Source: Bolinopsis microptera
Lineage: Eukaryota > Ctenophora > Tentaculata > Lobata > Bolinopsidae
NCBI RefSeq assembly: GCF_026151205.1
Contig: NC_087079.1
Coordinates: 17,850,945 to 17,914,944 of the forward strand
Length of the DNA stretch: 64,000 nt
Direction: 5' to 3'
In this document: in pieces, positions 26,498-29,400 of the stretch
How positions within the stretch are numbered: position 1 is the stretch's first letter
Layout of the letters: each line of letters begins with the position of its first letter
The notes under the pieces: model-generated
Databases searched by the model: none
Told to the model about the DNA's origin: nothing
What the model saw: the letters and a program-made list of their open reading frames with translations, nothing else
Position numbers and translations under genes: made by a program

Positions 26498-29400
26498 CTG
26501 AGGGTAATATCTTCTTAGTAATGATATCTTACAAATCAACTGATAACAATAAAAGAGTTGTATCTATAGCACTAAATAACTTTGCAAAGACCACGCACCT
26601 CCTCCTCGGTGAGGTCCCTGAGCTTTGTCACGTGACGGGTAGGTAAAAGTAGGAGCTCAAAAGGCCACTTGGCCCAGTAGGGTACTAGAGCTACCCAGTA
26701 TTCACTCTCCTCTACTACCCGTTTTTTACACCTCATCTCCTTTTCTAGGTACTTTACCTGAGGAATTTAGGCATATTAAAGTGTTAAGAAGTTTACAATG
26801 TATTATTTTAGATTCTATCGAATCAGTAGATTTAAAATGAGTCAGGAATGTCAGTCAATACGTGTTGTGATTGAGCTTAATCAAATTAATTAAACTTGTA
26901 AAGATGGACCAATTATACCAGACTCATCATAGTGAAGTTGTCCGAAAAACAGAACAAATAACTTAGCGGAGGAGATATTGTGCACGTACAAGAAGTGGGG
27001 AGTTGTGTTTGTGATATTGTGCACGTACAAGAAGTGGAGAGTTGTGTTTGTGATATTGTGCAATTACAAGAAGTGGAGAGTTGTGTTTGTGATATTGTGC
27101 ACGTACAAGAAGTGGAGAGTTGTGTTTGTGATATTGTGCACGTACAAGAAGTGGAGAGTTGTGTTTGTGATATTGTGCACGTACAAGAAGTGGAGAGTTG
27201 TGTTTGTGATATTGTGCACGTACAAGAAGTGGAGAGTTGTGTTTGTGATATCATGCACGTACAAGAAGTGGAGAGTTGTGTTTGTGATATCATGCACGTA
27301 CAAGAAGTGGAGAGTTGTGTTTGTGATATTGTGCACGTACAAGAAGTGGAGAGCTGTGTTTGTGATATCATGCACGTACAAGAAGTGGAGAGTTGTGTTT
27401 GTGATATCATGCACGTACAAGAAGTGGAGAGTTGTGTTTGTGATATTGTGCACGTACAAGAAGTGGAGAGTTGTGTTTGTGATATTGTGCACGTACAAGA
27501 AGTGGAGAGTTGTGTTTGTGATATTGTGCACGTACAAGAAGTGGAGAGTTGTGTTTGTGATATTGTGCACGTACAAGAAGTGGAGAGTTGTGTTTGTGAT
27601 ATCATGCACGTACAAGAAGTGGAGAGTTGTGTTTGTGATATCATGCACGTACAAGAAGTGGAGAGTTGTGTTTGTGATATTGTGCACGTACAAGAAGTGG
27701 AGAGTTGTGTTTGTGATATTGTGCACGTACAAGAAGTGGAGAGATGTGTTTGTGATATTGTGCACGTACAAGAAGTGGAGAGTTGTGTTTGTGATATTGT
27801 GCACGTACAAGAAGTGGAGAGTTGTGTTTGTGATATTGTGCACGTACAAGAAGTGGAGAGTTGTGTTTGTGATATTGTGCACGTACAAGAAGTGGAGAGT
27901 TGTGTTTGTGATATTGTGCACGTACAAGAAGTGGAGAGTTGTGTTTGTGATATTGTGCACGTACAAGAAGTGGAGAGTTGTGTTTGTGATATTGTGCACG
28001 TACAAGAAGTGGAGAGTTGTGTTTGTGATATTGTGCACGTACAAGAAGTGGAGAGTTGTGTTTGTGATATTGTGCACGTACAAGAAGTGGAGAGTTGTGT
28101 TTGTGATATTGTGCACGTACAAGAAGTGGAGAGTTGTGTTTGTGATATTGTGCACGTACAAGAAGTGGAGAGTTGTGTTTGTGATATTGTGCACGTACAA
28201 GAAGTGGAGAGTTGTGTTTGTGATATTGTGCACGTACAAGAAGTGGAGAGTTGTGTTTGGAGAAGTACTCCCTCTGATGAGAGTCTTCTAAAGAGATGAG
28301 GTAAGGAAGAAAACTAGAGCTCCATATTTGACAGTGAGGATGAGAGTTACTGCAGCCAACCATCGCTCCTTTGTTCTCGAATATCTGAGGGAGTCGCGAG
28401 GTTATATTAAGTAATGAGAATGAAGTGACATCTAAAATCTACTGTGTAAAATTCGTTGAGGAACCAGAATAGTTCAAATAATTTTATTGAAATTTTCCAA
28501 AAACCCGCTCCGAATCGAATCAGTTACCAGACAAGTTACCTGTACGTAAAGGTTGTATTTGAGCTGATCGGAGAGTCTGATCCACTCCCTGATAACACTC
28601 AGTATATCCTCGTGTCTCATGAGAGGGAGAGAGAGGTGAGAGTGGGGTGAGAAACACATCACGTGACACTCCCCTCCAGCTGGCTCACTCTGGAACAACT
28701 CATCCTCTGGCTCTGTGCCAGGACACGTGCTAGCTTTCTCACCTGGCTCTGTGCCAGGTTCCTCACCTGGCTCTGTGCCAGGTTCCTCACCAGGGGTGGC
28801 TTGTACAAGCGCGGAAAAGTCGTTAGGAAATACAAATGTGGAGGTGTAGAGGGGGTTAACACTGCCGTTAGATCTTGCAGCACCAGGGGACAGATAACTG
28901 GACACTTTAGTGAACCCCTGCAGTAAGAAAAGTTGAGACAAGGTGAGACAGGGAGCAATACTAGTAGTAAAACCATACTTATAAAACTTATATTATATTT
29001 GACCAAAACCCATAATCATGGGTAGAGTGTACCGCTGCCAGTGTCTCTCTTTTCCAAACAAAAGGAAATGATATTAATTTGAGGAACCGTCCGCTAATGC
29101 AAATTGATACCGAGAATGAAATCGGTCGCTCGCTTTTCCCATTCATTCACGGCTTACGAATTGTAATAAAGCTTATTAAATGGGAAAAGCGAGCGACCGA
29201 TTTCATTCTCGGTATCAATTTGCATTAGCGGACGGTTCCTCAAATTAATATCATTTCCTTTTGTTTGGAAAAGAGAGACACTGGCAGCGGTACACTCTAC
29301 CCATGATTATGGGTTTTGGTCAAATATCATCTCTTTTTGATTATAATGTCAGGATAATTTACACAATCGAAACTTCATTAACAAGGAGGTAATTCCGACG

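Follow-up and report, generated by a model that had tools for sequence, protein, structure and literature searches.

The window examined here, a stretch of 64,000 nucleotides from the ctenophore Bolinopsis microptera, carries on its minus strand GALT, a gene of galactose metabolism. The gene comprises five exons, each of a length divisible by three, which were placed by means of the spliced window product: exon 1 (31071..31175), exon 2 (28540..28917, with a coding 24-bp repeat detected by TRF), exon 3 (28238..28384, 147 nt, placed also by the annotated protein), exon 4 (26599..26757) and exon 5 (26198..26497, including the stop codon). Introns 1 to 4 measure 2153, 155, 1480 and 101 nt, respectively; intron 3 (26758..28237) opens with the donor CTT/GTACGT at 28237, the slash marking the exon–intron boundary, and closes with the acceptor CCTCAG before 26757. 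Joining this donor to this acceptor yields a stop-terminated product of 362 amino acids. The RefSeq protein 'galactose-1-phosphate uridylyltransferase-like isoform X2 [Bolinopsis microptera]' (P0001), an annotated model, is matched at 97% over its full length by a GALT protein read from the window, and the spliced product equals P0001 once 12 residues of exon 2 are taken out.

These residues correspond to 36 nt (28707-28742) that are absent from P0001. The segment has GT at its start and AG at its end and is flanked by two GAGCCAG copies inside the coding 24-bp repeat; the difference may stem from a mini-intron in the annotation, from polymorphism or from an artefact of cDNA. Intron 1 has repeats of its own. 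A 30-bp minisatellite (30837-31064) occupies its start, about 6 nt past the donor (31070) and without copying the exon, and a long near-perfect inverted repeat (29000-29320) looks by eye like a MITE or foldback element.

Intron 3 consists largely of a 39-bp minisatellite on the minus strand (26974..28259; TRF period 39, 33.0 copies, 98% matches, score 2453), the intronic portion of which spans about 1264 nt or some 85% of the intron. Each unit joins AAACACAACTCTCCACTTCTT, the 21 nt at the end of exon 3 that encode KHNSPLL, to GTACGTGCACAATATCAC, the 18 nt with which the intron starts, and the exonic part of the first unit is the end of exon 3 itself (28238-28258). A previous sequence-only reading of the window had described this reiteration of exon end and donor in about 32 copies; the array is real, and both TRF and a unit-by-unit listing put the number at 33. 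The GT is retained in every unit, as GTACGT in 32 and as GTAATT in one (unit at 27088), so that the splicing machinery meets 33 near-identical donors. A 27-base piece of the unit has 33 matches in the genome at up to two mismatches, all of them within this array, and none with a reversed-pattern control. Variants are carried by 10 of the 33 units, and as all ten fall within units 14-33, units 1-13 being free of them, the exon-proximal side of the array is the most uniform (Fisher p = 0.002 for the clustering, with units that are not independent and some variants that look copied from one another). The unit straddles the exon–intron boundary, like the amphioxus tandem repeats termed 'mirages', and its length lies within the range described for these (10-72 bp in Adh3, 150-160 bp in globins; PMC3087553).

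Among the possible joins between exons 3 and 4 that give the annotated protein, only CTT/GTACGT with CAG/GTA follows the GT-AG rule. P0001 fits donor 1 and carries no 13-residue inserts, and the junction is gap-free in an alignment of this GALT with 20 others. The first donor had previously been singled out by its phase and by an exact length agreement with human GALT; the choice is supported by the annotated product, and the length was compared with the 20 other GALTs, human not being among them. These results support donor 1 (28237) as the donor of the annotated GALT, and donor 1 is probably the one used in RNA. The array donor CTTGTACGT is weak on a donor-site matrix, at 4.1 bits, where the remaining donors of the gene reach 7.2, 8.7 and 8.1. 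In classical tests of duplicated donors, the site closest to the acceptor was often favoured, a preference that would select the last copy of the array and hence counts against donor 1.

Read past donor 1, the frame of exon 3 remains open for 594 nt up to a TGA (27641..27643, minus strand), and because all units are 39 bp, or 13 codons, long, 15 extra donors are usable in frame, exactly as the sequence-only reading had stated. That reading also proposed that donor n would insert n x 13 residues, which is correct on paper up to donor 16. A functional ladder of isoforms, in which donors 1 to 16 are used to a measurable extent and GALT proteins carry the corresponding extra residues, is the alternative that survives best, and it has a precedent in human IFI6, where two downstream repeat units serve as donors and three mRNAs are formed (PMC4526556). 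Against it, no protein bearing such inserts was found: with the read-through frame as a query, 8000 candidates selected by shared words and length were scored and gave 42 matches, none of which extends over more than 26% of the query, and the repeat words AQYH, VRAQY and YHKHN are found in none of the 160 database proteins from the GALT and read-through searches. Six of the 33 units contain a TGA in the exon 3 frame, and the five other changed spots, located in four units, comprise one silent change and four that alter a residue. Furthermore, the exon 3/4 junction (L198/V199 of P0001) lies within the first turn of the helix predicted at residues 197-208 (block mean pLDDT 98), which a 13-residue insert would enter.

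Several further exons in the genome have arrays of similar anatomy. A blind sample of twenty 10-kb stretches, picked before any donor pattern was searched for, contains 71 minisatellite arrays, and in two of these an exon end is copied along with its donor, surely in one (L025) and very probably in the other (L013). The L025 exon encodes part of a homeodomain, ending at position 45 of the 57 in the profile (Pfam E 2.8e-13 for the exon alone, above the cut-off). Its end, CAG/GTAAGT, is followed by 21.5 copies of a 35-bp unit, 20 of which contain CAGGTAAGT, and the exon downstream of the array reads VWFQNRRAKCKKTGV. In L013 an exon ending in AGCAG/GTAAAA, for which Pfam gave no match, is followed by about six copies of 48 bp and then by an exon with a DUF4139-like start (Pfam E 7.2e-5, below the curated cut-off). 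A possible third case among the 71 is L010:6411-7322, which repeats a possible exon end whose coding status is unproven. The surrounding region (L010:6150-7350) is a complex of nested arrays comprising the end of a cysteine-rich reading frame and AAA/GTAAGG, and is perhaps another donor array.

A genome-wide search for three perfect CAGGTAAGT in a row (gaps 10-40) returned 451 matches (156 + 295), and none for the backwards pattern; the dinucleotide-preserving counterpart is CAAGTAGGT, and the 451 represent a count and not a proof of enrichment. Among the 100 matches listed, the pattern falls at nine places, to which the window and L025 contribute one each. The other seven comprise L027/L034, L032, L029/L037, L028/L036, L030, L031 and L033/L035. 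L027/L034 has a WD40-like exon (Pfam E 1.7e-5 for MABP1/WDR62 and 0.0014 for WD40, neither of which passes its cut-off; best PDB match 1.9e-10) followed by 29-bp units, eight of which contain CAGGTAAGT. L032 (32 bp), L029/L037 (41 bp) and L028/L036 (20 bp) show open, exon-like frames and acceptors and are less certain as exons: the L032 and L029 peptides have no Pfam match, the L029 exon has no PDB match, and L028 reaches a Pfam E of 0.12, below the cut-off, with no match for its two exons joined. The L028 frame requires the first donor, CAA/GTAAGT, which lacks the G at position -1, and seven copies of CAG/GTAAGT lie downstream of it; read past the first donor, the frame meets a TAA at once. 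L030, L031 and L033/L035 were rejected as donor arrays, there being no clear exon ahead of the repeats. In the unit of the 37-bp array of L031 (L031:873-1051), a pyrimidine-rich stretch containing TTTCAG runs straight into GTAAGT, such that acceptor-like and donor-like signals recur as a pair.

At the six non-GALT loci with a readable exon, the frame past donor 1 is closed by a stop 1 to 36 nt on, and only one of the six unit lengths is divisible by three; splicing from donor 2 or a later donor would result in a frameshift or an early stop. As none of the six permits an in-frame ladder, a ladder is not what such arrays are for, and GALT appears to owe its open frame to a chance combination of phase 0 with a 39-bp unit. 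Taken with the lack of inserts in the proteins searched, the in-frame stops and the predicted helix, this makes a functional ladder in GALT unlikely.

The reading we prefer, with a probability of roughly 0.83, is that the GALT array is a donor mirage: a tolerated, non-adaptive duplication of an exon–intron boundary at which the exon-proximal donor is used. Support comes from the anatomy of the array, from the annotated product that fits donor 1 and from exons elsewhere in the genome that are built alike. We envisage that the tandem duplication of a 39-bp piece straddling the boundary of exon 3 and intron 3 gave birth to the array, which would have grown by slippage or unequal exchange. Splicing from 28237 would leave the protein unchanged and turn the remainder of the array into plain intron, which is why the array would be tolerated; it is probably neutral.

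A far less probable account, of the type proposed by Rogers and by Zhuo, holds that the array itself created intron 3, in keeping with the large share of the intron that it occupies. Neither the consensus unit nor the joint between two such units contains an AG, and therefore the unit offers no acceptor, the acceptor of intron 3 lying outside the array; in addition, subtracting the array would leave intron 3 with about 216 nt, a length close to that of introns 2 (155 nt) and 4 (101 nt). Least probable of all is an assembly artefact affecting the copy number or the place of the array, since, hard as long near-identical arrays are to assemble and single as the assembly is, ten of the 33 units carry variants, the window contains no N and similar arrays exist elsewhere.

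Minisatellites are abundant in this genome. Counting arrays with a period of at least 9 and at least 3 copies, the window and the blind sample together (264 kb) hold 112 arrays that cover 15.3% of the bases; 41 of them are in the window, where they take up 28.7% of its length. Some window arrays may be coding, for instance a 42-bp array (23384-24516) preceded by an open frame. When ten large ORFs of the window were searched against Pfam, one gave a match, which lies below its cut-off, and a putative exon ahead of the 8594-8833 array was discarded with a Pfam E of only 0.13. A calponin-homology exon (Pfam E 3.2e-7) on the minus strand has as its neighbour a plus-strand array (53495-54024) of about 48 copies of AACAGGTAAGT, the perfect donors of which are thus antisense to the exon; the array begins about 9 nt past the exon's own donor.

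No measurable tendency of the arrays to lie at donors emerged in our sample, with the exception of one setting and one 7-base word. We compared 184 edges of 101 arrays to 300 random placements under 12 combinations of threshold and window. Strong donor motifs showed no excess at the edges in 11 of them (p 0.24 to 0.87) and p = 0.033 in one, and in most settings the 3' edges had similar or larger counts; the lack of excess in the 11 is what is expected if array seeds land anywhere. Inside the 112 arrays, GTAAGT occurs 5 times (permuted GTAGTA 7, AGTAGT 7; reversed TGAATG 0), AGGTAA 6 times (permuted AAGGTA 4, AGTAAG 5) and AGGTAAG 3 times (permuted AAGGTAG 0, AGTAAGG 2, AAGTAGG 0). The last of these leans towards donors on tiny numbers, and we therefore do not claim an attraction. 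Outside arrays, single copies of CAGGTAAGT number 0 in 224 kb, and four control words 3, 3, 3 and 1. The plainest account is accordingly a minisatellite-rich genome, in which some minisatellites would have been seeded on exon–intron boundaries and retained where the first donor still works. In the exons of L025 and L027, an AAGT precedes the AAGT of the donor itself by about one unit length, which suggests that the first duplication may have arisen by slippage or by joining at short homology; the suggestion stems from these two loci, and GALT has no such clear match.

If the sample's two donor arrays per 200 kb held throughout the 264.65 Mb of the genome, there would be about 2,600, a figure with a very wide range given that it derives from two events only. 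We put forward tentatively, at odds somewhat short of even, that donor arrays are common in this ctenophore and possibly affect hundreds to thousands of introns, each with several to dozens of near-identical or stronger donors, and yet the exon-proximal donor is kept. Were this true, the genome would test 5' splice-site choice on a large scale, as an experiment of nature, and would show how introns lengthen via copied exon ends; this possible commonness is of more interest than the GALT case alone. Loci with many donors offer a direct test of how the spliceosome chooses among identical sites, the sharpest case being L028 with its required CAA/GTAAGT and the seven CAG/GTAAGT downstream, and donor arrays represent a simple route to intron lengthening. 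They also place mirage-type arrays far outside the chordates, at several exons of one genome.

The sequence-only reading knew of no described gene with an amplified splice donor, a claim that earlier work overturns. The amphioxus mirages, found in Adh3, in the globins BflGb6 and BflGb9 (PMC3087553) and in TnC and PGBD5 (PMC3902484), are boundary-spanning, minisatellite-like repeats as in the ctenophore GALT, and their splicing is described as regular and their length as unstable (PMC3087553). BflGb6 is reported there with 6 and 3 repeat units in its two haplotypes, numbers exceeded by the 33 copies in GALT, and its repeats lie on the acceptor side whereas the GALT array lies on the donor side; the phyla differ as well. 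A further likeness is found in the minisatellite of human IFI6, which furnishes repeated GT donors just as the GALT array does in all of its units. It reportedly sits at the end of an exon and consists of 26 copies of a 12-nt unit. The multiple splice donors that it supplies in this gene (also 6-16 or G1P3) are credited to Turri et al. 1995 (cited in PMC4526556), and transcripts from two downstream units are reported for it, whereas the GALT array is known here from the genome and an annotated protein. In human genes within segmental duplications, internal tandem repeats at exon–intron boundaries alter gene structure; these too are minisatellites placed as in GALT, but average about four repeats and are cast as sources of new introns (PMC2812944). 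A limited literature search found no report of arrays of this kind in ctenophores. The GALT array extends a kind of array known from amphioxus and human IFI6 to a ctenophore, in which the kind may be common.
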